The notes under the pieces were generated by a model, which saw only the letters and a list, made by a program, of their open reading frames with translations, searched no databases and was not told where the DNA came from. The position numbers and the translations under genes were made by a program. A stretch of DNA of 12,134 bases, taken from positions 1-12,134 of the forward strand of contig MLAK01000072.1 in assembly GCA_001839685.1 (NCBI GenBank), in the 5' to 3' direction. Within the stretch, counting starts at the first letter, position 1; every line of letters begins with the position of its first letter. The DNA comes from Tritrichomonas foetus. Its lineage: Eukaryota; Parabasalia; Tritrichomonadida; Tritrichomonadidae. Below are positions 1-12,134 of the stretch, piece after piece.

Positions 1-34
1 TATTGTTAAATTTTGGGTTTGATGAAATTTTTAG

Positions 35-67
35 TGTTTTCATTTAATTTTTTTATGTTTTCATTTA
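35..67. repeat. 12-bp direct repeat with 21-bp period
   Basis: TGTTTTCATTTA occurs at 35-46 and again at 56-67. Read on the minus strand, the 21-bp period equals one seven-residue heptad (NENIKKL then NENTKNF) inside a short open frame. That frame ends at a TAA at 6-8 and is blocked upstream by a stop at 141-143, so it holds at most about 44 codons and crosses the N-containing palindrome. It may be the tail of an old coiled-coil gene, or chance in AT-rich DNA. Confidence 0.4.
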
Positions 68-98
68 TGATTTCGTTGGTTTTCTCATTCATGAATTT

Positions 99-143
99 TG
101 AGTTGNNATAANTTGNAGCNNNGCTGCAACTTATCACAACTTA
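99..143. repeat. Near-perfect palindrome with ambiguous bases
   Basis: The left arm at 102-119 reads GTTGNNATAANTTGNAGC and the right arm at 123-140 is GCTGCAACTTATCACAAC. Every called base of the left arm pairs with the right arm. Pairing extends outward through 101/141 (A-T), 100/142 (G-T wobble) and 99/143 (T-A). The three central bases are N. All seven N bases of the window lie in the left arm and loop, which suggests poor base calling at a strong hairpin. It could be a transposon or MITE end, a cruciform, or a fold-back artefact. No second copy was seen in the window. Confidence 0.75.
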
Positions 144-724
144 TAGGTCTACTTTATTAGTTCATATTCGACTTCTTTCAGCCAAATTAAAATTGTATAT
201 TGCTTTGTACTGGTGACACAATAATAATATCATATATTTAATTTTTATTATAATTAACAGCTTATCAACAAGACAATTGATCTCACATCGATATTCGGTA
301 TTATATTAATGCTTCACACGTCTAAGGGAATATTCCTTATTATTATAACAATAATGATACAAAAAAAGATTTCTTCTCCAAACAAACCCAACTATTTCGA
401 TATTTCCAGATCACAAAGGGTCAATATACAAAAAAATGATTGCTTGTGAACCTAACATTCATTAATTTACAATTTATAATGTCAAAACATAATTCACTTC
501 GATTTTTGATTTATTAAATAATTCATTAAATAATATTAAATATATTAATGTTAATATAACAAAAACATTACCCAGTATCAAAATATCGAATATAAGGAAA
601 TCACAAAACAATCTACTCAAAGACGAAACAATTTCAAGAAAGAAAAACCTAAATTAGATATAATATATGGAAATATATAAAAGAGAATTAATACTAAGTT
701 GGTATTTATGACGTTTATGGCTAC
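141..724. other. AT-rich non-coding spacer
   Basis: No convincing gene, tRNA or repeat is visible. All six frames are broken by frequent stops, and the short open stretches have the low-complexity composition expected of AT-rich DNA. The right end is the 3' flank of the MATE gene. Confidence 0.6.
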
Positions 725-730
725 TTTATT
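725..730 (-). terminator. AATAAA overlapping the MATE gene stop
   Basis: On the minus strand the stop and following bases read TGAATAAAG. The last A of the TGA stop is therefore the first A of an AATAAA hexamer. Trichomonad mRNAs are known for polyadenylation signals at or very near the stop codon, so this is a plausible 3'-end signal. Use of the site is inferred. Confidence 0.4.
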
Positions 731-2523
731 CAAAGTTCTGTAGGTGGCTGTGCTGTCTTAGGGGTGATGCTGCTGAAGTGGCGGCGATCCTTATTAACAG
801 TTCCCTTCTTGGCTGAAGGTACCGAATTCTTCATGGCTGGTGTGACACTGCTAAAGTGTCTTCTGAAGTCTTTCTCTTGTTTCTCCTTATTGATAACTTC
901 AGATCTAGAAACAACAACATTCATTGCTGGTGTGATGTTGCTGTAGTGACGGCGGAACATGAAGACTGGTTGTTGCGTCATCTTTCCATCATCTACATCA
1001 TCTTTCTGTTCAATTGATTCCATTTCACCATCAGCTCCCATTTCACTCTGGTCGACAGTGAGGAGGAACCTAAGCTTCCAAATAGCAACTGACCAAACGA
1101 TGATGAATGCCCAAACATCTCTGGCGACGAATGACAAGTGGAGACGGATTGGGTTGGCTTTGTCAGTGAAGTAGAAAATGGTACTGAAAAGTGGGATAGG
1201 CACCAAAAGTGTCAAGCATGATGTAATGATAGAAAGTGTAACCATCTTTGTGGCCACAAGACAAACGACAATTGTGAATTGACCCATATTGATGAAAGTT
1301 GTGCAGAAAGAGTAAATCATCGTCTTTTCAGCGTAGTGAAGGAATCTTTCATCTTTTCCGTAAAGTGAAGCGAGTTGTCTTGGGAAGACGCACAAAATGA
1401 GACACATAAGGGCAGACCATGCTGTACCGATTCCGAATGCGTATAAAACGAGTTTCATGAGACGGTGGAGACGGTTGCTACCGAAGGCATATGAACCGGC
1501 TGGAAGGAAGCCCTGGTTAAGTGCGTTGCAAACGCAAATAACAATTTCGTAGAGACGATCGACGAGATTCCATGCGGCCATAACTGGTACGTATTCGCCA
1601 ACAGCTTCACCAGAAAGTGCGACATATTTACCAAGCATAAGAACTGGAATTTCAGCGGCGAAGTTTGAGATGAGCTGTGAGAAGGAAACTTTGAGGGCTG
1701 TCCATGAGTGTGGATTGAACTTCTTGAAGAACATGTTGAATTTTGGCTTAACGGTGTATTTTCCGCAAAATACCATTACAAAAATATAAACGAATGGAAT
1801 GAGGCAGGCAAGAGTATTGGCAACGGCAGCACCCCACATGTCTGTCTTGAGAGCAATAAGGAAAAGTGGATCGAAAACGCACATTGTAAGAACGCATGAT
1901 GTGATCTGGCAAACTCCGTACATAACTGTTTTACCCATAGCTTGAAGTAAACCGCAAAGTCCAAGGTAAGCATAGTTGATGAAAGCGCAGCATAATTGTG
2001 GAATGAGATAATTCATACACATATCGCAAATCATATCATCAGCTCCGTACCAGCGGCAGAGTGGTCTGGCGCATGGAATTAAAATGGCTGGAACAATAAT
2101 ACCTGCAATTAAAACATATCTTATCATATCAACAACAACTTGGGCACAATGCTCTGGTTGTCTGATACCGAACAAATAACTGATTCTTTCACTGAGACAA
2201 ATGTTGAAGTATTGACCAATGGCAATATGGATGAAATCGACGACAATGATGATTGACATAACAGTCATACCAGCTTCGCCATGCTTGGACTTGGAAATCC
2301 AGAAGGAGTTCATTAAACCGTAGAGGGCATTAACCAATTGTGAGCAAAGTGGACCGATTGTAAGTTTGCAAAGTGTGCGGAATGGAGGATAGGCGCCGAG
2401 CTCCTTTTGCTCCTTGGCATCATCAATATCGTTTTCGAGAACTTCTTTCTTTTCCATGTTTGGATTATCAAGTTGATCATCTCCTCCAGCGTTGAGTGGC
2501 TCGTTGAGGTCGGGATTATCCAT
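730..2523 (-). CDS. MATE-family multidrug/solute efflux transporter
   Basis: 597-residue polytopic membrane protein. Family members use an ion gradient to export drugs or organic solutes across the plasma or organelle membrane. A hydrophilic acidic N-terminus (residues 1-48) is followed by about eleven or twelve hydrophobic segments between residues 50 and 488. MATE-like features include the first-helix stretch GPLCSQLVNALYGLMNSFWI (57-76), LGLCGLLQAMGK (187-198) and a Pro/Gly-rich helix around residues 331-345, in two similar halves. The start is the ATG at 2523; the GTG codon just before it is not needed. The cytosolic tail (about 489-597) carries three copies of RRH(F/Y)S(S/N)(I/V)TP beginning near residues 524, 554 and 580, separated by Lys/Ser-rich linkers. 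Codon use is richer in GC than in the Sec24-like and GH31 genes, which suggests good expression. The family is clear from the fold pattern; the substrate cannot be told. Confidence 0.85.
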   Translation of the reverse strand: MDNPDLNEPLNAGGDDQLDNPNMEKKEVLENDIDDAKEQKELGAYPPFRTLCKLTIGPLCSQLVNALYGLMNSFWISKSKHGEAGMTVMSIIIVVDFIHIAIGQYFNICLSERISYLFGIRQPEHCAQVVVDMIRYVLIAGIIVPAILIPCARPLCRWYGADDMICDMCMNYLIPQLCCAFINYAYLGLCGLLQAMGKTVMYGVCQITSCVLTMCVFDPLFLIALKTDMWGAAVANTLACLIPFVYIFVMVFCGKYTVKPKFNMFFKKFNPHSWTALKVSFSQLISNFAAEIPVLMLGKYVALSGEAVGEYVPVMAAWNLVDRLYEIVICVCNALNQGFLPAGSYAFGSNRLHRLMKLVLYAFGIGTAWSALMCLILCVFPRQLASLYGKDERFLHYAEKTMIYSFCTTFINMGQFTIVVCLVATKMVTLSIITSCLTLLVPIPLFSTIFYFTDKANPIRLHLSFVARDVWAFIIVWSVAIWKLRFLLTVDQSEMGADGEMESIEQKDDVDDGKMTQQPVFMFRRHYSNITPAMNVVVSRSEVINKEKQEKDFRRHFSSVTPAMKNSVPSAKKGTVNKDRRHFSSITPKTAQPPTEL

Positions 2524-2535
2524 CACTGTTAACTA

Positions 2536-2548
2536 ACCTTTGAAGGAA
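2536..2548 (-). promoter_or_regulatory. Possible initiator of the MATE gene
   Basis: The minus strand reads TTTCCTTCAAAGG, placing TTCA about 18 bases before the ATG at 2523. It fits the TTCA core seen before the other genes but lacks the CATA of the clearer copies, so it is the weakest of the set. A better TTTCATATTCC lies at 2558-2568, but on the opposite strand. Confidence 0.3.
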
Positions 2549-3591
2549 ACTTTTTCTTTCATATTCCAAAGAATTTCAATAGAATGGGATAAATCAATGA
2601 GTTAATTCTGAACTTAGCCCAACAATTTATTCGTATTTTCTATTATTTCTTTGAATTGTTCATACATTTTTGAGAAGAAATTTCATCTTTGGCTTTTTGG
2701 TAAATAATTGATGAAAATTTCTCAGTTAAATAATTAACCATAAAATTGACCATTTCCCACATTCACAAGATAGACAATGAAATGAATTCGAAATAGAGAT
2801 TCTCTTTTTCAATAGACTATGAAAAAAATTGATATGAAATTCATCGATAGTATTGAAAATGAAAAAATCAAATCAATTTTTCTAGGCTATTTTTGTATGA
2901 TGCATTTAAAACATAGCCTCATCATATCTCAATTTTTCTGAAAGTCTTTTTGGAATATAGTCAATAAATCCTATTTTCCCCATTTATAATATATAGAATT
3001 GTCTTTTCATTAAAAGCAACAAATCAATTGTTCAATTCCAGAATTGAATATAAAAAAAATGTTAGTGAAATCATTTAGCCCCATTTATTCAAACAAACTT
3101 TGTCAATCTTCATATCAAATCACTTAACTAAATTTCAAATAAAATATTTTTCAACAATTATCAAAAATTCTAATATGTCTATCAATTGTTTTTAATGTCT
3201 CTTAATCATCTCAAATTATTGAAGTGGAAATCATTGAAAAAAGATTAGTAATTGATAGCAAATTCAAAAAATAAATAATACTATACAATTACTCTGAAAT
3301 GTTCAACAATATCTTCAGAATTTGAATAATACATATCTCGTGCAAATATCCATCAAAACATCGTTATAATTTATTTTACTTTCTGAAAAACACAAGAAAA
3401 GTATACTTCTTCGAATATACCCGAAAAACGATGAACATTTTTTTCTCGATTATTATTCCTAAGATAGAATTTCGCTAATTTCCCATGAGCATCATTGTAA
3501 ACTATTAGCTAAAAATATCGGGAACATTTTGAGGGAACAGTTCTGCTAATCGAGCTTTATCTTATAATTAGAATATATTTCTTCAAATAAA
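2549..3591. other. AT-rich intergenic spacer of about 1 kb
   Basis: No gene, RNA or repeat array is recognisable. It joins the 5' side of the MATE gene to the 3' side of the Sec24-like gene. The longest open stretch seen is plus-strand, about 49 codons ending at a TAA near 3479. It lacks a start at its beginning, has a Lys/Phe/Tyr/Ile-heavy composition and resembles no family I know. Confidence 0.6.
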
Positions 3592-5061
3592 TTAATCAGA
3601 AATGATATATTTATTGCACATATCTTTGAATTCATCTGGTGTCACAACATTAATGTAAAATGGCCACAAATTTTGATTGAAAATTTCGTCGATTTGAAAA
3701 TTGTCGAGTTTTTTCAGAACATATAGTACAGGTGGAGCTATAATTATGCTGCAATCAGGCATTTCTTTCAAATGATAAAGTAAATTGCATTTACCAAAAT
3801 TCAATAAAACATAATATAGTCGAAAAACATCAATTTGCAAATTATTTCCTATATCTGCTAAGCAAGTTCCAGTAATCGCTTGCTTAATTTCATCAGTTAG
3901 TTTCTCTTTAATAGTCCTCTTGAAGTCTTCTCCATCCCAAGCTGCGCGAAGTACATCAGAGGCAAATCCTTTCAAAAGAAGAGAAATTGTAATGTTTTCG
4001 TTGACGTTTGCTGCATTTTTATGAAGTGTGTGAACAGTTAGGAAAGTGCCATTCCTTGTTCTGACTGATTCTAAAAATCTTGTATGAATATGATTTTTAT
4101 TTTCTTCACATTGGAAACGGATGGACCCTCCAACCATTGAGTTTAACTTTAACTTTGTGATGAACTCCTTTGTATTCACTGATCCTGAGCATCCAGTCGT
4201 TTTCGTGAACGTGACACATCTTGGTGCATAAAAGCGTGTTCTATCTGAAGGCCTAGACATAAAAACAATTTTCCTCACAATGGATGCCGGCAAGTCAGCA
4301 GTTCCAAAAACAGATCCAAAGCTATATCTTGTGACAGCACTATATCTTCTGAATTCTGGGGGCCCACCAATATGAACGATAGATTTAGCTTCAGAAACTG
4401 CTTCACCGAGAGCTTCTGCATCAGAAACTTGCAAATCACAAATTTTTCGATAGAAGAATAAAAAGAAGGCGACTGGCCGTTTTGATGCAGCCTTCAAGGA
4501 GCACCTCAGCCCGAAAAATGGATCGCATACTGGATTAAGCTCAGCTGGCCTCAATGCATAAATTGATGTAATTGATGGAATAACAACAGATTGAATCCAT
4601 TCTCTTTCAATTACGTATTGTTTTAACATTTCAACAAAATTTGGATTATCATAAATATCAAAAATTAAAAGTCCATTTTTGACCGACGCAAATATGGCAT
4701 TATTGGCCATGCAGACAATAGAAATCGTATCGTCGTCTGTTATTGAATTGTACAGTTCTGTTAGATAAGCAATAAGCTTATTTTGAGGCATTTCAATATC
4801 GAATATAAAAAAGAAGTGATTTCTGGGAATTGACTTTGGACCAAACTGGTATGATCCATTCGAAAAATCCGAATCTGGATGGCAAATTGGGCAATCAGTG
4901 TCTTTTTCGTTCTTTAAGGGAAATAATGGGCATTTGCATTTTGGACATTTTTTAATTGCTTGTGAAAAAAATAAATATGATTCTGGCTCGAGATTGATTT
5001 GAACACATCCCAAAAGCGATTTGTTATCGAGAACCTTTGTGGAATTAAAAAGAAGCGTCAT
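3592..5061 (-). CDS. Short divergent Sec24-like COPII coat protein
   Basis: 489-residue soluble protein. Sec24 is the cargo-binding subunit of the inner COPII coat on ER exit sites and pairs with Sec23. A zinc-ribbon is seen at C39-x2-C42-x14-C57-x2-C60, with the CxxC spacing of Sec24. A vWA-like trunk follows from about residue 81 (HFFFIFDIEMP), with the GLRCSLKAASKRP stretch (184-196) matching the Sec24 GAALxAA helix. A segment like the Sec24 pattern F..KL..L....G...R.R is at 300-317, then TVHTLHKN (342-349), like the RVHTLCLP of Sec24. A helical part ends near PPVLYVLKKL (443-452). Typical Sec24 proteins exceed 700 residues: the long disordered N-terminus is absent and no gelsolin-like C-terminal domain is evident. 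Sec23 is the alternative, but the Arg that Sec23 uses for Sar1 GAP activity lies in the missing domain. It is divergent with the coiled-coil gene. The Sec23/24 assignment is fairly firm, Sec24 over Sec23 less so. Confidence 0.65.
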   Translation of the reverse strand: MTLLFNSTKVLDNKSLLGCVQINLEPESYLFFSQAIKKCPKCKCPLFPLKNEKDTDCPICHPDSDFSNGSYQFGPKSIPRNHFFFIFDIEMPQNKLIAYLTELYNSITDDDTISIVCMANNAIFASVKNGLLIFDIYDNPNFVEMLKQYVIEREWIQSVVIPSITSIYALRPAELNPVCDPFFGLRCSLKAASKRPVAFFLFFYRKICDLQVSDAEALGEAVSEAKSIVHIGGPPEFRRYSAVTRYSFGSVFGTADLPASIVRKIVFMSRPSDRTRFYAPRCVTFTKTTGCSGSVNTKEFITKLKLNSMVGGSIRFQCEENKNHIHTRFLESVRTRNGTFLTVHTLHKNAANVNENITISLLLKGFASDVLRAAWDGEDFKRTIKEKLTDEIKQAITGTCLADIGNNLQIDVFRLYYVLLNFGKCNLLYHLKEMPDCSIIIAPPVLYVLKKLDNFQIDEIFNQNLWPFYINVVTPDEFKDMCNKYIISD

Positions 5062-5067
5062 TAAAAT

Positions 5068-5084
5068 GACATGTTATATGAAAT
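5068..5084 (-). promoter_or_regulatory. Initiator-like element of the Sec24-like gene, with tiny uORF
   Basis: The minus strand reads ATTTCATATAACATGTC. If transcription starts at the A of TCA, the 5' leader is 18 bases. It contains an ATG seven bases in, opening a three-codon frame (Met-Ser-Phe) whose TAA overlaps the gene's own ATG as TAATG. TTTCATATAACATGTC is identical to a 16-mer upstream of the ribosomal S18 gene. Function is inferred from position and similarity. Confidence 0.5.
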
Positions 5085-5436
5085 TAAAATAATGAATATT
5101 ATTAAATATCGCGATCTAAAACGAATATTTAAAATAACTCTTGAAAAATAATAATAAAAATTGTATTTATTAATTAATAAATATATCACAGCATTAAAAA
5201 TTCTAACAACAGTATTATTTTTTTTAAAATCTCAATATTCCCTTAAAAATTTGGCTTGCCAACTGATAATTATCAAAAATATAATCAATTACGCTAAATT
5301 CAGTTTATTCAATTTTGATAAAAATCAACTTTTGAAACTTTATATAGTCTTTTTTTTCATAATATTAGACCATATAAACTCGGAAAAAGTGAATTCGGAT
5401 TGAATTTATTTGTCATCAAAAATTTGTGAGAGATCG
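5085..5436. other. Divergent intergenic region between the Sec24-like and coiled-coil genes
   Basis: About 350 bases of extreme AT content with long T and A runs separate two genes that point away from each other, so it probably holds upstream regions for both. An open frame at 5161-5403 (+) has no ATG at its start, is rich in Ile, Leu, Lys and Asn, and resembles translated AT-rich spacer. I do not call it a gene. Confidence 0.6.
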
Positions 5437-5450
5437 TTTTTTCATATTCT
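5437..5450 (+). promoter_or_regulatory. Initiator-like element of the coiled-coil gene
   Basis: TTTTTTCATATTCT places the A of TCA 12 bases before the ATG at 5456. Such a short leader is typical of trichomonad mRNAs and supports this ATG over the in-frame GTG at 5426, which lies upstream of the element. Confidence 0.5.
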
Positions 5451-5455
5451 CCAGA

Positions 5456-6670
5456 ATGAGTGACGAATACGAGCCTTCTGCCCTTCCTCCACTCGATCCA
5501 AAAAAGTCAACAAGTTCAAATGATGAAATTGATATTTCGCCACAAGAAATTAAACGCGCAATCCTTCAATTATATCCACGAATCCAATCTATCGAAAAAA
5601 AATTGAAAGACATTCAATCACAACTTCCTTCTGAATTGAACAAAAGTATATTACAAATTAGACGCGATATTTCAACTCTAAGGGAAAAATATGGAACTCA
5701 AATCGATATCAGCGACGTAATTTCTCACATTGTTGAAGTTGAAAATCGTTTAAATTTGAACATCGATCTTTGCGTTGACGAATCAGTCTCAAATTTCAAT
5801 AAAAATATCCTCCAATATTATAAGCCAGAGGAAGCTTCAAATGACAATACACTTGAAGATTTCAATAAAAGAATCAATAGTTTTGAAGAATTGATGAACC
5901 AACAAAACAAACATAAAGAGCAAAGATTATCCAATCTCGAAAGAAAAATTGCGAAGTTGACTTCACATCCTCCTTCACAATCTTCATCAGAACAGATTGA
6001 AAAACCATCTAAAACAATGAAATCACAAAACCTTCAATTGGCTGAATTAAAATCTAAAATAAACAAAATTTCAATTCCTTCTGATCAAAATAACGTCTTT
6101 TCTGTGACACAACCAATATCAACAACAACATCATCATTATCAACAACAACAACTCTTTCTTCTCCAAGCACTAAAAATTCAATTGTCAAACCTAAGCAAA
6201 TTAAAGATAATACAATACCATTACAAAACTTAACAGACCTTGTTCAAAATTTCAGAAATGACTTCACAAATTCTTTAACTGAAGCTCGTCAAAAAACACA
6301 AGATTGTAAAAATCGAATAATCGAAGTGAAAAATATGACCAATGAAATTAAAGAATCCGCATCAGATATTGAAAGTCGGGTCATTGAAGTAAATAATTTA
6401 TGCGATTCCCTTTCGAAGCAAATTTCCGGAATAAACCAAAAATTATTACATAATGATGCACAAAAAGCAATTGAATCAATAACAATGCAAATAAAAAGTG
6501 CACAAGATAACATAATGATGGAACTTAATTCAATTAAATCACGATTAAAGAAATGTGAAATGTCAGAGCCTTTAATTGAAACTACTTTTTCAAATGTCGA
6601 TTCAAATTCCAACAAAGAACCTAATTTGGCCATTGTTACTGTTGGAGAAACCGCTGACATTGAAAATTAA
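5456..6670 (+). CDS. Hypothetical coiled-coil protein
   Basis: 404-residue hydrophilic protein with no signal peptide, no membrane segment and no catalytic domain that I recognise. A Pro/Asp-rich N-terminus (MSDEYEPSALPPLDPKKS) is followed by predicted coiled coils at about 31-78, 86-121, 132-169, 190-206 and 255-365, with heptad-spaced Ile, Leu and Val (for example IQSIEKKLKDIQSQL, 43-57). A Ser/Pro linker lies near 169-185, and a Ser/Thr-rich low-complexity linker (TTTSSLSTTTTLSSPS, 223-238) separates the middle and C-terminal coils. The last 35 residues are uncoiled and acidic. The ATG at 5456 was preferred to the in-frame GTG at 5426 because of the TTTTTTCATATT element between them. A structural or cytoskeleton-associated role is possible, but coiled coils alone do not show it. 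Confidence 0.75.
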   Translation: MSDEYEPSALPPLDPKKSTSSNDEIDISPQEIKRAILQLYPRIQSIEKKLKDIQSQLPSELNKSILQIRRDISTLREKYGTQIDISDVISHIVEVENRLNLNIDLCVDESVSNFNKNILQYYKPEEASNDNTLEDFNKRINSFEELMNQQNKHKEQRLSNLERKIAKLTSHPPSQSSSEQIEKPSKTMKSQNLQLAELKSKINKISIPSDQNNVFSVTQPISTTTSSLSTTTTLSSPSTKNSIVKPKQIKDNTIPLQNLTDLVQNFRNDFTNSLTEARQKTQDCKNRIIEVKNMTNEIKESASDIESRVIEVNNLCDSLSKQISGINQKLLHNDAQKAIESITMQIKSAQDNIMMELNSIKSRLKKCEMSEPLIETTFSNVDSNSNKEPNLAIVTVGETADIEN

Positions 6671-6675
6671 ACAAA

Positions 6676-6691
6676 TGTTTTCCCCAAAACA
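6676..6691 (+). terminator. Small hairpin just after the coiled-coil gene stop
   Basis: TGTTTT-CCCC-AAAACA forms a perfect six-base-pair stem with a CCCC loop, starting five bases after the TAA. The stop itself reads TAAA, the tetranucleotide proposed as a trichomonad polyadenylation signal. A role in 3'-end formation is a guess. Confidence 0.3.
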
Positions 6692-6761
6692 CACATAGAT
6701 TTCCGTGCGTCATGTACATACAAACACTTTTACTTTTTTCCAATATTATTATTTCTAAATC

Positions 6762-6767
6762 AATAAA
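6762..6767 (+). terminator. AATAAA in the 3' flank of the coiled-coil gene
   Basis: CAATAAAGTG lies about 90 bases after the stop and is followed by a T-rich stretch (GATCTTTTTTTCCCC). This is a classical polyadenylation signal layout. The sequence is certain; its use is inferred. Confidence 0.4.
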
Positions 6768-6797
6768 GTGTTTGATCTTTTTTTCCCCAATTAAGCA

Positions 6798-7172
6798 TTA
6801 AAAATAATACAGTGAATAAAAGAGGAGAAGTCTCTCATATTCATTCATGCACTTGGAAAATTCGATAATCATTTCAATTTCGTTATTTACGATTATAAAA
6901 TTTCGAGAAGAAAGATCAACTTCGTGATCATCATCAGATAAATCAAAAATAATCTCATGCTTGGCATCTTCAATGATTGAATGATGTCATGTTTGAAATC
7001 TTTGTCAGAACAGTGATCTAATTTTGTTTAGAATCTTCCAATTAAGTTCCTTCAGAATCATTTTATTAGATTGAGAAAAATTATAAATAAAATTATAATT
7101 GTTCAATTCACTAATCACATTTGATATAGTTTCCATGAACATTGATTCCAATATTTGAAGATATCTTTTAAC
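6798..7172 (-). pseudogene. Probable decayed gene fragments, frameshifted
   Basis: Three overlapping minus-strand open stretches in different frames follow one another. They are 7172-7005 (55 codons, starting VKRYLQILES and passing an ATG at 7142), a piece from 7024 to about 6967 (LDHCSDKDFKHDIIQSLK), and 6986-6798 (62 codons with HEIIFDLSDDDHEVDLSS, ending in TAA). Composition is protein-like, with in-phase Asp codons and balanced charge, unlike the translated spacers elsewhere in the window. Frame changes near 7010-7020 and 6970-6985 would be needed to read through. Together with the 70-residue frame upstream on the same strand this may be one broken gene. I do not recognise the family. Chance open frames in AT-rich DNA are the alternative. 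Confidence 0.35.
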
Positions 7173-7298
7173 TCAGTTCTACAAGTCTTTTAATACAAAT
7201 TTTCCATATGATATCGGTCATTATGCACCAATTTTTTCAAAGTAAAACTAGTTTTAAAAATATATTTTTTTCATTGTTCCAGCAAACGGGAATATTTT

Positions 7299-7304
7299 TT
7301 TATT
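7299..7304 (-). terminator. AATAAA after the 70-residue frame
   Basis: The minus strand reads TAG AAATAAAA, with AATAAA starting two bases after the stop. This mirrors the arrangement at the MATE gene and gives modest support to the small frame as a transcribed gene. Confidence 0.3.
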
Positions 7305-7305
7305 T

Positions 7306-7518
7306 CTAATAAAAAGAACTATACATTTCACGAATACTCTTCATTTCTAGAATACCAAAAGAAGCTTTGCTTACATTTGAATATTCTTTGATTACACCTG
7401 AATAATACTTGTAATCATCATCTGAACTACATAATAAAGCAACATCTGAGTGATTACTTCTTCGAGATTTAGCATTTTGTAATATCAAATTCACATCAGA
7501 TTTTATCGACACCGGCAT
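7306..7518 (-). CDS. Possible small protein of 70 residues, or 5' end of a broken gene
   Basis: The predicted protein starts MPVSIKSDVNLILQNAKSRR and ends EMKSIREMYSSFY. It has a basic N-terminal part, an acidic patch (SSDDDYKYY), no signal peptide and no membrane segment, and I do not recognise it. Two things favour a real gene: TTTTTCATAG, matching the initiator-like element of the other genes, lies eight bases before the ATG, and AATAAA follows the TAG by two bases. Minus-strand frame fragments continue downstream to 6798, so it may instead be the surviving first part of a longer gene. It is divergent with the ribosomal S18 gene. Confidence 0.4.
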   Translation of the reverse strand: MPVSIKSDVNLILQNAKSRRSNHSDVALLCSSDDDYKYYSGVIKEYSNVSKASFGILEMKSIREMYSSFY

Positions 7519-7522
7519 TTTT

Positions 7523-7532
7523 CTATGAAAAA
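7523..7532 (-). promoter_or_regulatory. Initiator-like element before the 70-residue frame
   Basis: The minus strand reads TTTTTCATAG, with the A of TCA eight bases before the ATG at 7518. Sequence and spacing agree with the elements before the coiled-coil and Sec24-like genes. Confidence 0.4.
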
Positions 7533-7727
7533 GTTTACTTTACAAGAACAAAAATTTTTGCCAATGAAATTCCTCGGTCAATTCCTCCATAACGACCAAA
7601 CTTGAATAAAAATACTACGATCAAACTAGATCAAATTATAAAGGTAAATCAGAATTTTTGGCGTACCTCAAATATCCACTTTTTGATGAACCACATACAA
7701 ATATAAATGGCATTATCATGATTTACT

Positions 7728-7743
7728 TTTCATATAACATGTC
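7728..7743 (+). promoter_or_regulatory. Initiator-like 16-mer upstream of ribosomal protein S18
   Basis: TTTCATATAACATGTC is identical to the element before the Sec24-like gene. Starting at the A of TCA (7732) would give a 45-base leader, long for a trichomonad. That leader would include an out-of-frame ATG at 7739 opening a frame that runs to 8125, through most of the S18 gene. Either this ATG is skipped because it lies only seven bases from the 5' end, or transcription starts further down, perhaps in the pyrimidine run CCTTTC at 7766-7771. Confidence 0.4.
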
Positions 7744-7776
7744 CGTATCCAACGGTTTTGGTCGACCTTTCGTGAA

Positions 7777-8241
7777 ATGCCTCTCGAGGTTACAGATCCA
7801 TCTGCCTTCCGTGATATGGTTCGTATGCTCGCCACAAACGTTGATGGCCGTAAGCCACTCTACCTTGCCCTTACAAACATCGCAGGTCTCGGCCGTAGAT
7901 TTTCTCATGCAGTCTGCCGCCGCGCTGGCCTCGACCCACTCCGCCGTGCCGGAACACTTACAGGACCAGAAGAAGAACGTATCGTCGCAATCATTCAAAA
8001 TCCAGTCGAAAATGGAATCCCAGTTTGGATGCTCAACCGCCGCTTCGATCGCGCAACTGGAAAAGATCTCCAATGGGCTGGAACTGATCTTGGCGCTAAC
8101 CTCCGTAACGATATCGAAAGAATGAAGAAGATGAGGATGAAGCGCGGTATCCGCCACGGACTCCACCTTAAGGTTCGTGGTCAATGCACTAAATCCACAG
8201 GTCGTCGTGGTACAGCTGTCGGTGTCGAACGTAAGAAGTAA
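7777..8241 (+). CDS. RPS18: 40S ribosomal protein S18 (uS13 family)
   Basis: 154 residues, close to the usual 152 of eukaryotic S18. It sits in the head of the small subunit and contacts the P-site tRNA and the bridges to the large subunit. Family landmarks are seen in order: NVDGRKPLYLALTNIAGLGRR (21-41; the helix-two-turn-helix core), RRAGTLTGPEEERIVAIIQNP, IPVWMLNRR, and the basic RGIRHGLHLKVRGQCTKSTGRRG followed by a VERKK end. The ATG at 7777 gives the expected N-terminus; no in-frame ATG lies upstream before a stop at 7735. Codon use is strongly biased to C-ending codons (CGC, CTC, ATC, AAC), and the gene is far more GC-rich than its surroundings, as expected for a very highly expressed gene. 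No intron is seen. The stop reads TAAAA. Confidence 0.97.
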   Translation: MPLEVTDPSAFRDMVRMLATNVDGRKPLYLALTNIAGLGRRFSHAVCRRAGLDPLRRAGTLTGPEEERIVAIIQNPVENGIPVWMLNRRFDRATGKDLQWAGTDLGANLRNDIERMKKMRMKRGIRHGLHLKVRGQCTKSTGRRGTAVGVERKK

Positions 8242-8273
8242 AAACACGATTCCATTTTTTTGTGGAATGTTTT
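8241..8273 (+). terminator. Hairpin in the 3' UTR of the S18 gene
   Basis: AAAAC pairs with GTTTT, and ATTCCA (8249-8254) with TGGAAT (8263-8268), enclosing a T-rich loop and leaving a three-base bulge on the left arm. It starts at the stop codon. It may mark the mRNA 3' end or affect stability. No AATAAA was seen after this gene. Confidence 0.35.
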
Positions 8274-8778
8274 CAAAATTTCAATTATTTATTTTTTTAA
8301 AAATCATTTCTTTAATTAGCACTATATATAATTATTAACATCTCATGTCTTTCAACTTACTTTTTTTATTATTATTATTTTTTTTTCCTTCTCTTCTTTT
8401 GTTTTTATCATATTTCCAATTTATTGTATCAACAAATGATCAATAACGGAATGAATGACTCATATGTCGAATCTCAAAGTTGCTTTATCGTTTGAATCAA
8501 AATGGATCTGATTTTACTTATTAACTTCAATAGAAATTATAAATGCTAACATAAAAGTAGAATTCTTATTCACCAAAACATTGTCAATACATAGCCATGC
8601 AAAAATAATGTGGTGTTATGATTATTCACTATAGCATGACGAATATACTCTAATTTATATTATTATGGCAATTATTATTATATGAAAATGTAAAAAATCA
8701 ATAAAAAAACAACGAAGAATGTGAATTTTTTTCAAGAAATATTTTAAAAACAAAAAAACACAATAAGAAATTTTTGAT
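8274..8778. other. Convergent 3' spacer between S18 and the GH31 gene
   Basis: AT-rich, with T and ATT runs at about 8350-8400 and A runs at about 8700-8765. No open frame, RNA or repeat family is recognisable. It holds only the 3' flanks of the two convergent genes. Confidence 0.6.
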
Positions 8779-8799
8779 GAATTATAAAAATTATAATTC
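8779..8799 (-). terminator. Perfect hairpin across the GH31 stop codon
   Basis: GAATTATAA (8779-8787) and TTATAATTC (8791-8799) are perfect inverted repeats with a three-base loop. The GH31 stop codon (8793-8791) lies in one arm. All but two pairs are A-T, so the hairpin is weak, but its position at the stop matches the hairpins after S18 and the coiled-coil gene. Confidence 0.3.
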
Positions 8800-11700
8800 T
8801 TCAGAGTTCAGAAGATGTACTTTCTTCTGAGTATTATTAAGTCCAGTCTCAAGAATGTCAGCAGACTTAGTTGATATCTGCTTTTGCTTTAATTTCTTGT
8901 ACAACACAATTGGAATTGTTATCGACATTGTAATGAAGCCAATCCCAAGAATAAATCCAATAATTAATGTTGCAAGTGTCATTTGACTAATGTGATAAAC
9001 TACAGCAGTTAGTTTCCAATTGGTATTTAAAGATAGAGGATCAGATTCAGGGATTTTAATTTTCAATACACTTCCAGAATGTATTGTTTCATATCCTTGA
9101 ATCCCTTTAGGTCTTCTAGAAAGTCCGAAAATAATAATATTTTTAATTTGATATGATGAACAATCAAAATTTCCATCATTCGTCATTCTTATTGTCCCTC
9201 TATTAAGTTCAACTTTTACTTTACAATAAGAACCATTTAGATAATCAAATGAAACGCCATCATCAAAGTATATTTCGCCATAAGCTTGCTCATCATCATC
9301 CATTGAAATATACATGTCAAGGTTTTGAGTTTTCAATGTTTGCATTGTTGATTCTTCAGCTTTTTGGAAAACACAAATAACTTTTCCACCTGCTAAAAAT
9401 ATCGGTGTATCTATTATCGTTACAGAATATGGAGTAGTTTCAGTATGTTCTAAACCGCCTGGATAACAATACCATCTTCCTGGTGGTTTAATGACATATC
9501 TTATAGTTTGATTTTCTTCAACAATTGGTGCAAGCATGAAAGTGTCAGCAACAACAACAAGATCGGTAATAGTATGCGCAGGCTCAAAATCTGGGTAAAT
9601 TGCCCATAATGGTTTAACTATAGGATTTCCTGTTAAATTTGCTTGACGAGCTGCATTATACCAAACTAAGAGATGTTGATATCGTTTATTAATTGAAGCT
9701 AGTATTGCATTAAATATAACACCAGTATATAAATATGGTTCTCTATAATCAGTTAGATATGAACTATGCTCCCGGAAAAAGGGACTTGTCCAAGCAGCAA
9801 GTTGAAACCATCTCACTAATAATTCATTTGAAGGTGAACTACTAAATCCACCAACATCTGAACCAATGAAAGGAATTCCAGATATTCCACTACCAATTAC
9901 ATGAACTAAAGATGCTCGTAAATCTTCCCATGTTGCATCGTTATTACCAGTAATTGTCCATGCATATTTCTGTGATCCTGAAAAGCAGCTACGTGATACC
10001 AAAAAAGGCCGTAAGTTTGGTTTTTGAGTATTTCTACTGATCAGGCCATGATAAGTGCTAGCAGCCATCAAAGTTCCATAAATGTTGTGAATATCACGAT
10101 TTTCAAATCCTCCGTTATGTACAACATATTTTGGAAATGTATTTTCATTCACATTATTTTGATTTTGGTCATCTTCATCATTACCATCTTTAGCATCATT
10201 TTTATCATCTGCAATATTTTTGTCATCAGTAAAAATGAAATTATGATTTGCTATATCATTTTGATTTTCAGTTTGTTTTCCAGAATCTTCAACATCCAAT
10301 TTATTTTTATGTGAAAGAATTGGGAAAATAGTGGCTTCATTCATATCAATCCAATAGAATACATTCGTGTTTGAGATGTCAATATCATATTGATACTGTG
10401 ATGCCCACCAATCTCGCACTTTTTGATTTAAAAAGTCAGGCCAGGAAGACAAGCCAGCGTGACTATTTGCAACAAAAGGCGAAACACCATCAGACATATT
10501 TACAAAGTAGTTTAATTTTTTTGCATCATTGTATTGACGATGTTGAACATTGGAAGGGAGGTAGGGATCAGATAATCGTATTAAATAACGATCGCTTGTC
10601 AAAACCTGGCCAATTAGTTTTTTTGGTTCAGGAAAAGTTGTAGAATTGAATCCAAAAGCTGCATTATTGGCTAAATGGTCTGTTCCAAGCCAAATTGAAT
10701 CAAATGGAACTTTTGCAGATTCGAGTGATTGCATCACTTTTGTTACTTCATCTTGTGAATGATATGAACTTCGACATTGGTGATACCCGAGTGAAAAAAT
10801 TGGTGGGAAAAAAGGACGTCCTGTCAAAGATGTGAATTTTTGAATAATGCTGTTAAAATTTCCAAAAAATAAATAAACATCGATAAAACCAGTCTCACTT
10901 AAAAAACGTAACGATGAATCTTCTGTTACTTGTACAAAAGTGTCACTCGGATTTGCCCAGAAAATTCCAATTTGATGTTTTGTAGAATGTGCAATTATAA
11001 AAGGATTTGATGAATAATGCTTGTAAGAATCATAATTATAAAGGCGATAAATTTGTCCATCAATATTAAAGCTTTGAGTGTTTCCTCCGAGTCCAGAAAA
11101 ATAAAAATCATTCTTACCGAAAGAAAAATCGCATCCAACAGATGTAAATGAATCATCTCCTTCATTTAAAGAAAAGTCATCATTTAAAAGAGATTCATCA
11201 TGTAAAAGAGATTTTCCATTTAAAAGAGATTCATCATGTAAAAGAGATTCATCATTTAAAAGAGATTTTCCATTTAAAGGAAATTTTGGAGTTGAAGCTT
11301 TTTTTATTTTTTCATGAAAAAAAGATGATTTTCTGTTTTCTGGATTTTCAAAAATAAACTGCGAATTTTTGTTAAACTCTAAAATTGTTTCTCGATTCTT
11401 TTCAAATTCAATCCAAAATGGATCAACATAAATTTTGATGATTATATTTAATAATTGACTCGACAATTCGAAGTATTTAATATATTTGTTCATACTGAGT
11501 TTTTCGAATTCTCCAAAAGTATTTTGGTTAATTATGCAGCTTTCTGATGAAATATCATATCGATTTTTTTCATGATTTTTAATGTTGGTTTTAATTCGAA
11601 TACTTTGATGTTTCGGCGAGGAAATCATTATTGATACATTTGTTGGTTCGTTGAACTCCGTTAGATCCGCAATAAAATGCGTTTGATTGAATATGATCGA

Positions 11701-11826
11701 ATTTATGTCAATTGAATAGTTTGCGGTGAAATTGAAGTTCCTCCGACAGAAAGGAACATTATTGCACGAATTGAAAGGATTATCGGCTATAATGGTGGCA
11801 AGGAGCAAAAATAAGAGATTCACCAT
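8791..11826 (-). CDS. GH31 alpha-glucosidase-like membrane protein, possibly inactive
   Basis: 1011 residues, closest in motif pattern to the alpha subunit of ER glucosidase II. An N-terminal signal peptide (about 1-15) is followed by SCNNVPFCRRN (20-30), like the cysteine motif of glucosidase II. The beta-sandwich includes SVGCDFSF and YRLYNYDSY. The catalytic barrel has WIDMNE with nucleophile D494, RDIHNIYG (577-584), RSCFSGSQ, GSDVGGF (655-661) and FREHSSYLTDYREPYLY (684-700). A single membrane helix (about 949-975) and a 36-residue basic cytosolic tail make it a type I protein, whereas glucosidase II alpha is soluble. The acid/base Asp of the family TGDN motif is Asn (N628 in TGNNDATW), and WLDIEH is changed to WLGTDH (G381). 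A repeat SLL(N/H)(D/G)(E/K) lies at about 184-222 and an Asp/Asn-rich insertion at about 505-562. It may be a surface or ER pseudoenzyme, a transglycosylase, or an active enzyme using D630. The GH31 family is certain; activity is doubtful. Confidence 0.9.
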   Translation of the reverse strand: MVNLLFLLLATIIADNPFNSCNNVPFCRRNFNFTANYSIDINSIIFNQTHFIADLTEFNEPTNVSIMISSPKHQSIRIKTNIKNHEKNRYDISSESCIINQNTFGEFEKLSMNKYIKYFELSSQLLNIIIKIYVDPFWIEFEKNRETILEFNKNSQFIFENPENRKSSFFHEKIKKASTPKFPLNGKSLLNDESLLHDESLLNGKSLLHDESLLNDDFSLNEGDDSFTSVGCDFSFGKNDFYFSGLGGNTQSFNIDGQIYRLYNYDSYKHYSSNPFIIAHSTKHQIGIFWANPSDTFVQVTEDSSLRFLSETGFIDVYLFFGNFNSIIQKFTSLTGRPFFPPIFSLGYHQCRSSYHSQDEVTKVMQSLESAKVPFDSIWLGTDHLANNAAFGFNSTTFPEPKKLIGQVLTSDRYLIRLSDPYLPSNVQHRQYNDAKKLNYFVNMSDGVSPFVANSHAGLSSWPDFLNQKVRDWWASQYQYDIDISNTNVFYWIDMNEATIFPILSHKNKLDVEDSGKQTENQNDIANHNFIFTDDKNIADDKNDAKDGNDEDDQNQNNVNENTFPKYVVHNGGFENRDIHNIYGTLMAASTYHGLISRNTQKPNLRPFLVSRSCFSGSQKYAWTITGNNDATWEDLRASLVHVIGSGISGIPFIGSDVGGFSSSPSNELLVRWFQLAAWTSPFFREHSSYLTDYREPYLYTGVIFNAILASINKRYQHLLVWYNAARQANLTGNPIVKPLWAIYPDFEPAHTITDLVVVADTFMLAPIVEENQTIRYVIKPPGRWYCYPGGLEHTETTPYSVTIIDTPIFLAGGKVICVFQKAEESTMQTLKTQNLDMYISMDDDEQAYGEIYFDDGVSFDYLNGSYCKVKVELNRGTIRMTNDGNFDCSSYQIKNIIIFGLSRRPKGIQGYETIHSGSVLKIKIPESDPLSLNTNWKLTAVVYHISQMTLATLIIGFILGIGFITMSITIPIVLYKKLKQKQISTKSADILETGLNNTQKKVHLLNSEEL
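11163..11288 (-). repeat. 18-bp coding minisatellite in the GH31 gene
   Basis: Five 18-bp units tile 11181-11270, alternating CATTTAAAAGAGATTCAT or ...TTTTC with CATGTAAAAGAGATT variants. A degenerate unit lies at each side (11163-11180 and 11271-11288). Because 18 is a multiple of three the frame is kept, and each unit encodes six residues of the SLLNDE/SLLHDE/SLLNGK type. The units differ at only a few bases, pointing to recent duplication or ongoing unequal exchange. Confidence 0.9.
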
Positions 11827-11851
11827 TATGCTTAAAAAACCTTTTACAATT

Positions 11852-11862
11852 ATTTGAAATTT
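11852..11862 (-). promoter_or_regulatory. Possible initiator of the GH31 gene
   Basis: The minus strand reads AAATTTCAAAT, with the A of TCA 29 bases before the ATG at 11826. It shares the TTTCA core, with A in place of the T that follows in the better copies. Confidence 0.3.
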
Positions 11863-12134
11863 TGTTTGTTGAGTTAGATATAAATTGAATTTTTGAATTG
11901 ACTATCTAAAAATACATTGAATTGATTTATCATTTTTTTATTGAAAAGATTCACAATGTTTCAACTGAATACGCAAATATGCTCCATTATTTCCAGATAT
12001 TCTGAACTCAAAATATTATAAACAATATCTTAACAAACATCCACAAATTATGGGATTGATTTTGGCCAGATTCACCTGTATCAAATTACTTTTAAGGATG
12101 TAGTCCCATGCCGTTAACTATTAAAAAAATTGAA
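11863..12134. other. AT-rich 5' flank of the GH31 gene
   Basis: No open frame, RNA or repeat is recognisable up to the end of the window. It presumably holds upstream sequence of the GH31 gene. Nothing in it could be matched to a known element. Confidence 0.55.

Follow-up and report, generated by a model that had tools for sequence, protein, structure and literature searches.

The locus described here raises the question of whether a protein that resembles an α-glucosidase of glycoside hydrolase family 31 (GH31) can still be an enzyme. It lies in contig MLAK01000072.1 of Tritrichomonas foetus (GenBank assembly GCA_001839685.1), of which positions 1 to 12,134, a stretch of 12,134 nucleotides referred to below as the window, were analyzed. 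The minus strand of the window encodes a GH31-family protein of 1011 amino acids, P0001, with Asn at the place of the catalytic acid/base Asp. P0001 is quite likely a GH31 pseudoenzyme, with a complete GH31 fold and probably the topology of a type I membrane protein, that has been kept for a noncatalytic role. This assignment is carried by several residue losses, an intact conserved reading frame, a predicted fold with a C-terminal helix, and a constraint on the active-site pocket that is relaxed relative to the rest of the protein, all of which were computed directly.

Codons 626 to 631 read ACT GGT AAT AAC GAT GCA on the minus strand, and the corresponding segment of P0001, TGNNDATWEDL, aligns without a gap with TGDNTAEWDHL of the mouse glucosidase II α subunit (GANAB; Protein Data Bank [PDB] entry 5f0e). 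A preliminary description of this DNA, made from the letters alone, had reported Asn for the acid/base Asp and a retained nucleophile, D494, in the motif WIDMNE. Both readings are confirmed: codon 628 is AAT, at the coordinates originally reported and in gap-free register with TGDN of GANAB, and codon 494 is GAT, with Asp supported by the alignments. In an alignment of 299 rows, which comprised 4 members of the clade described below and 295 other homologues (4 database proteins outside the range of 560 to 1300 amino acids were left out), column 628 is Asp in 294 of the 295 others. The acid/base Asp is also kept in the 12 other T. foetus paralogues of the tree alignment and in the T. foetus protein P0010. 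The sole homologue without it, the database protein P0056, has Ala at this column and Ser in place of the nucleophile, and might be another GH31 pseudoenzyme.

The acid/base is one of several pocket losses in P0001, and the only one that had been noticed before. The residue numbers of human GAA, used here as a guide to the pocket, were placed on P0001 by alignments to GANAB-type proteins and by known GAA motifs, and are presumably equivalent. In human GAA, 11 residues contact the ligand in the −1 subsite, and D404 is among those that hydrogen-bond it there (PMC5653652). Four of these 11 are replaced in P0001 (W376 by S353, D404 by G381, W613 by I625, and D616 by N628), so that the set of residues that marks an active GH31 glycosidase is incomplete. 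A fifth change, I441 to L423, is conservative, and the remaining six, the equivalents of GAA W516, D518, M519, R600, F649, and H674, are kept. Outside this set, the CWPG motif of the family reads SHAG in P0001. The positions concerned are as follows.

10768-10770, minus strand: S353 in place of Trp (GAA W376), which is Trp in 253/295 homologues
10684-10686, minus strand: G381 in place of Asp (GAA D404), which is Asp in 293/295 homologues
10456-10461, minus strand: H456-A457 in place of the WP of the CWPG motif, with W456 in 293/295 homologues
10345-10347, minus strand: D494 (GAT), the nucleophile Asp of WIDMNE (GAA D518), kept
9991-9993, minus strand: R612 (GAA R600), kept; Leu in P0002 to P0004
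9952-9954, minus strand: I625 in place of Trp (GAA W613), three residues before the acid/base, which is Trp in 294/295 homologues
9943-9945, minus strand: N628 (AAT) at the column of the acid/base Asp (GAA D616), from the codon reading and the alignments
9937-9939, minus strand: D630 (GAT), the substitute acid proposed earlier, from the codon reading
9766-9768, minus strand: H687 (GAA H674), kept; Gln in P0002 to P0004

P0001 groups with three proteins derived from read assemblies, P0002, P0003, and P0004, which are 51 to 54% identical to it over 802 to 808 shared columns. This clade has a support value of 100 in the Shimodaira-Hasegawa-like approximate likelihood ratio test (SH-aLRT), and it is recovered without the pocket and its neighboring columns as well. 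No member has W353 or the WP of CWPG; three have Gly at the D381 column, and two, P0001 and P0003, have Asn at column 628, a distribution that needs two changes on the tree. In P0002 to P0004 the MNEPS loop is shortened and its E-P-S part is missing; P0001 has an insert after that loop. Judged from these alignments, the branches of the clade lost different parts of the pocket. No further close members were found with P0001 as the query (best 120 of 316 matches), with the four-member alignment (all 67), or with P0003 (best 120 of 211), in word-based searches that may miss distant relatives. Among the matches listed, none that belongs to the clade bears the name of T. vaginalis or T. musculus, but this does not prove that these species lack it.

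The relaxation of the pocket is visible when the 11 pocket columns are compared with all other columns within groups of four sequences. Among P0001 to P0004, 7/11 pocket columns are variable versus 527/859 others (0.61; p = 1). In P0010 to P0013, the sister group, only 1/11 is variable versus 0.62 elsewhere (p = 0.00053), and five further quartets gave 0/11 (0.65 in the rest), 3/11 (0.75), 1/11 (0.68), 5/11 (0.75), and 2/11 (0.75), with p values from 1.3e-5 to 0.038. Restriction to the 811 columns filled in both the clade and its sister gave 7/11 versus 475/800 and 1/11 versus 487/800, respectively. The pocket is thus under no visible extra constraint in the clade, and the other columns vary no more than in the control quartets. 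Changes in the pocket are not confined to P0001 to P0004, because the quartet with 5/11 variable columns contains L040, a T. foetus paralogue described below. In a second comparison, limited to 80 columns that are invariant in 19 reference rows, P0001 is changed in 4/9 pocket versus 7/71 other columns (p = 0.018), P0003 in 6/9 versus 11/71 (p = 0.0023), and P0004 in 5/9 versus 11/71 (p = 0.0135). When the columns were instead the 44 conserved at ≥95% in 184 rows, for which the pocket list differed slightly, the value for P0003 was p = 0.0038. Limits of all these tests are the assumed independence of columns and the small size of the pocket.

P0001 combines the loss of catalytic residues with a predicted fold that is retained and with a sequence that is still constrained outside the pocket. 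Its ancestry would lie in the glucosidase II/maltase-like expansion of the trichomonads, and the active-site pocket was probably released from selection before the clade split, because all four members lack W353 and the CWPG residues. Normal retaining hydrolysis should not run in P0001, since the acid/base is Asn, the sugar-binding Asp has become Gly, and two pocket Trp residues are gone. Selection would then keep the ectodomain for another job. Most likely it would bind another molecule, whether partner or ligand, at the surface of the cell or within its endomembrane system, by way of surfaces outside the old −1 subsite. The suggestion in the preliminary description that P0001 is a pseudoenzyme is therefore well supported, by four losses in the −1 subsite, by other losses in the relatives, and by a pocket that varies at the background rate. 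A lectin-like function, also suggested there, is possible, but it is doubtful that the old −1 subsite can bind glucosides, because the equivalents of D404 and W376 are gone. A wider proposal, which we put forward only tentatively and would not bet on, is that a tritrichomonad branch of membrane-anchored GH31 glucosidases became surface recognition proteins, in which the pocket was freed and the fold serves as a receptor, an adhesin, or a regulatory partner of active paralogues.

The gene itself shows the architecture of a full-length, probably membrane-anchored family member.

8791-11826, minus strand: GH31-family open reading frame (ORF) of P0001, 1011 amino acids, with a hydrophobic N terminus and a C-terminal transmembrane-like segment
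11782-11826, minus strand: signal-peptide-like hydrophobic N terminus, from hydropathy only
11152-11295, minus strand: low-complexity stretch, residues 178 to 225, with a predicted local distance difference test score (pLDDT) of <50, mostly from an 18/54-bp tandem repeat
9655-10815, minus strand: GH31 TIM-barrel domain, residues 338 to 724, by Pfam, with a predicted fold that matches the glucosidase II α subunit
10144-10314, minus strand: Asp/Asn-rich insert, residues 505 to 561 (about 57 residues), directly after the nucleophile loop, predicted to be disordered (pLDDT of <50)
8866-8985, minus strand: C-terminal helix, residues 948 to 987, which holds a hydrophobic transmembrane-like segment and is followed by a basic tail, from hydropathy and the structural model

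Pfam searches and the fold match show a GH31 TIM barrel with N-terminal mutarotase-like and C-terminal domains (PF01055, E = 1.2e-79; PF13802, 2.3e-20; PF21365, 1.1e-9; all above the cutoff). The hydropathy calculation gave values of 1.42 at the N terminus and 2.33 at the C terminus, and the hydrophobic C-terminal helix is present in all four clade members. Hydropathy and the model together suggest a type I membrane protein as the probable topology; the hydrophobic N terminus and the helix at residues 948 to 987 bear out the earlier description of P0001 as a membrane protein. The tandem repeat, at 11162-11285, is in frame, encodes a product rich in Leu, Asp, Ser, and Asn, and is absent from P0002 to P0004.

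Several other explanations of the Asn at position 628 have to be weighed against a pseudoenzyme. An otherwise active enzyme could have been given its AAT codon by a mistake in sequencing or assembly, since GAT and AAT differ by one base and the reading comes from a single assembly. This is extremely improbable: three more pocket positions and the CWPG motif are altered too, and P0003 also has Asn at this column. A reading error was therefore rejected as a sufficient explanation, and the case for a pseudoenzyme does not rest on codon 628 alone, because further pocket residues are lost and P0003 shares the Asn. If, instead, the gene were decaying on its way out and had no present function, the pocket losses and the two low-complexity stretches would be expected, but its frame of 1011 codons is open (0 of 300 neutral simulation runs remained stop-free), the columns outside the pocket vary about as much (0.61) as in the control quartets (0.62 to 0.75), and the hydrophobic C-terminal helix persists in all four clade members, which together make gene decay very improbable.

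Two further alternatives retain catalysis. The role of general acid/base could have passed to D630, a substitute named in the preliminary description, which would lie two residues farther along the loop that follows the usual acid/base strand. Asp at column 630 is found in both N628 members, P0001 and P0003, the two D628 members having Ser or Asn there, and in only 8/295 outside homologues. All 8 of the latter retain a normal acid/base, however, so that Asp at 630 looks like an ordinary residue and gives no sign of a shifted acid. Moreover, sugar contacts are lost through G381, S353, and I625, and a shifted acid would not make up for them; P0003 lacks the equivalents of R612 and H687 and part of the MNEPS loop. 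The co-occurrence with N628 thus supports a substitute role of D630 weakly at best, and we regard catalysis by this residue as highly improbable. A changed reaction mode is also very improbable. Here D494 would form the glycosyl-enzyme and N628 would take part in an acid-independent reaction on activated donors, for which myrosinase-type GH1 enzymes offer a precedent. The presence of D494 in all four clade members and of R612 and H687 in P0001 fits this proposal, but the loss of the D404 equivalent and of two pocket Trp residues should weaken sugar binding in the −1 subsite, and a shared new activity does not predict that 7/11 pocket columns vary within the clade.

Some observations weigh against a noncatalytic P0001 or lessen the force of the tests. 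P0001 keeps D494, R612, H687, M495, F653, and W492. The nucleophile D494 is present in all four clade members (its column is gapped for P0002 and P0003 in the automatic 299-row alignment; finer alignments give Asp in all four), and P0002 and P0004 retain both catalytic Asp residues. Pocket enrichment is not significant for P0002 in the 80-column set (4/9 versus 17/71; p = 0.18), and in the 44-column set P0002 shows none (p = 0.27), with P0001 (4/11 versus 3/33; p = 0.054) and P0004 (p = 0.053) as borderline cases. The N-terminal hydropathy of P0002 is weak (0.89). A quartet may contain both orthologues and paralogues, of differing ages, and the clade identities of 51 to 54% are at the low end of the compared pairs (54 to 80%), so that constraint outside the pocket does not exceed the usual level.

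A pseudoenzyme at this locus would matter for annotation, since P0001, like P0010, would be annotated as a glucosidase or maltase by similarity. Recognition of a noncatalytic branch would correct the counts of digestive enzymes in trichomonads with large GH31 sets, and it directs attention to a conserved protein, probably bound to a membrane, in a parasite of cattle and cats. The P0001 clade would be a clear example from nature of an active site that decays while the fold stays.

A Pfam search of the T. foetus assembly (63.7 Mb, 1064 contigs) found 15 GH31 places, one of them, on contig C208, very weak. In the assembly, 14 intact full-length GH31 frames are present, P0001 included; a further T. 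foetus GH31 protein, P0184, is missing from it and has a best match there that is 50% identical. Because the assembly lacks at least this protein, the paralogue counts are lower bounds. The frame L034 is identical to P0010 over 940 residues and was omitted as its duplicate. L040 (G000:C831:13500-18100) keeps both catalytic Asp residues and shows D381N, W456Y, W492N, R612K, and W625S (P0001 numbering); its placement in a different branch suggests that it may be an independent pseudoenzyme. L037 (G000:C275:75500-80200) has an odd acid/base motif, SADCWALW, with the Asp kept and Gly at the F615 column. The weak place on C208, L042 (G000:C208:63800-68800), is an 843-amino-acid frame with a GH31 barrel match of 23.5 bits over model positions 204 to 327; it has no recognizable catalytic motifs in the alignment and Lys at the acid/base column and, being barely GH31-like, was excluded from both tree and counts. 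Short pieces at G000:C524:18795-19338 are 57 to 68% identical to parts of P0184, contain internal stops, and look like a gene fragment.

Elsewhere in the window lie a gene for a MATE-family transporter (730-2526, minus strand), a gene for a ribosomal protein of the S13/S18 family (7777-8241, plus strand), and an ORF of 489 amino acids (3592-5061, minus strand) with CxxC pairs close to the N terminus, for which neither Pfam nor PDB gave a significant match. The motif TCAYTW, which is initiator-like in T. vaginalis, is not enriched in the window (59 observed versus 68.7 expected) and was not used.

Among solved structures, the best sequence match of P0001 is GANAB (5f0e, 7jty; E = 2.9e-100). The two proteins share domain order and fold, the predicted fold of P0001 matching strongly, and the nucleophile Asp, the Arg, and the His of the pocket are kept; the likeness to the glucosidase II α subunit is one of sequence and fold only. 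In contrast to GANAB, P0001 has lost the acid/base Asp, the −1 subsite Asp, and two pocket Trp residues, and it has a hydrophobic C-terminal helix and a disordered insert after the nucleophile loop. The helix is shared with the T. foetus protein P0010 ("Neutral alpha-glucosidase AB") and its kin P0011 to P0013, which form the nearest clade in the tree with support of 86 to 88, below the usual mark. Unlike P0001, these proteins have 10/11 pocket columns that are identical in all four and equal to those of a bird GANAB, the eleventh being Phe or Tyr, and they look catalytically competent from their sequences. T. vaginalis and T. tenax are each credited with 17 GH31 proteins in a published table; the word "inactive" is absent from that paper, and its sole "catalytic" passage concerns a peptidase (PMC11288935). 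In the literature on T. foetus or trichomonad glycosidases and on inactive GH31 proteins, no paper on P0001 was found among the matches listed.

Two groups of insect proteins offer parallels, as far as the relevant passages of their descriptions go. The GNBPs, relatives of GH16 glycosidases, have become inactive and act in recognition within innate immunity (PMC3981738). They show that an inactive glycosidase relative can be reused for recognition, as P0001 may have been, but belong to another family and carry a separate N-terminal glucan-binding domain. A parallel within GH31 comes from flies, including sandflies, in which homologues without catalytic residues, the LysAglu1-like proteins and NET37 of clade IV, form groups of their own; in the lysosomal-type protein both Asp residues are replaced by Gln, and in NET37 the proton donor is replaced by Pro (PMC8063059). 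These dipteran proteins differ from P0001 in belonging to insect lineages, in the residues that were lost, and, for NET37, in having one N-terminal membrane segment. GH31 proteins without catalytic residues are thus already known from flies, and P0001 would be a further case.
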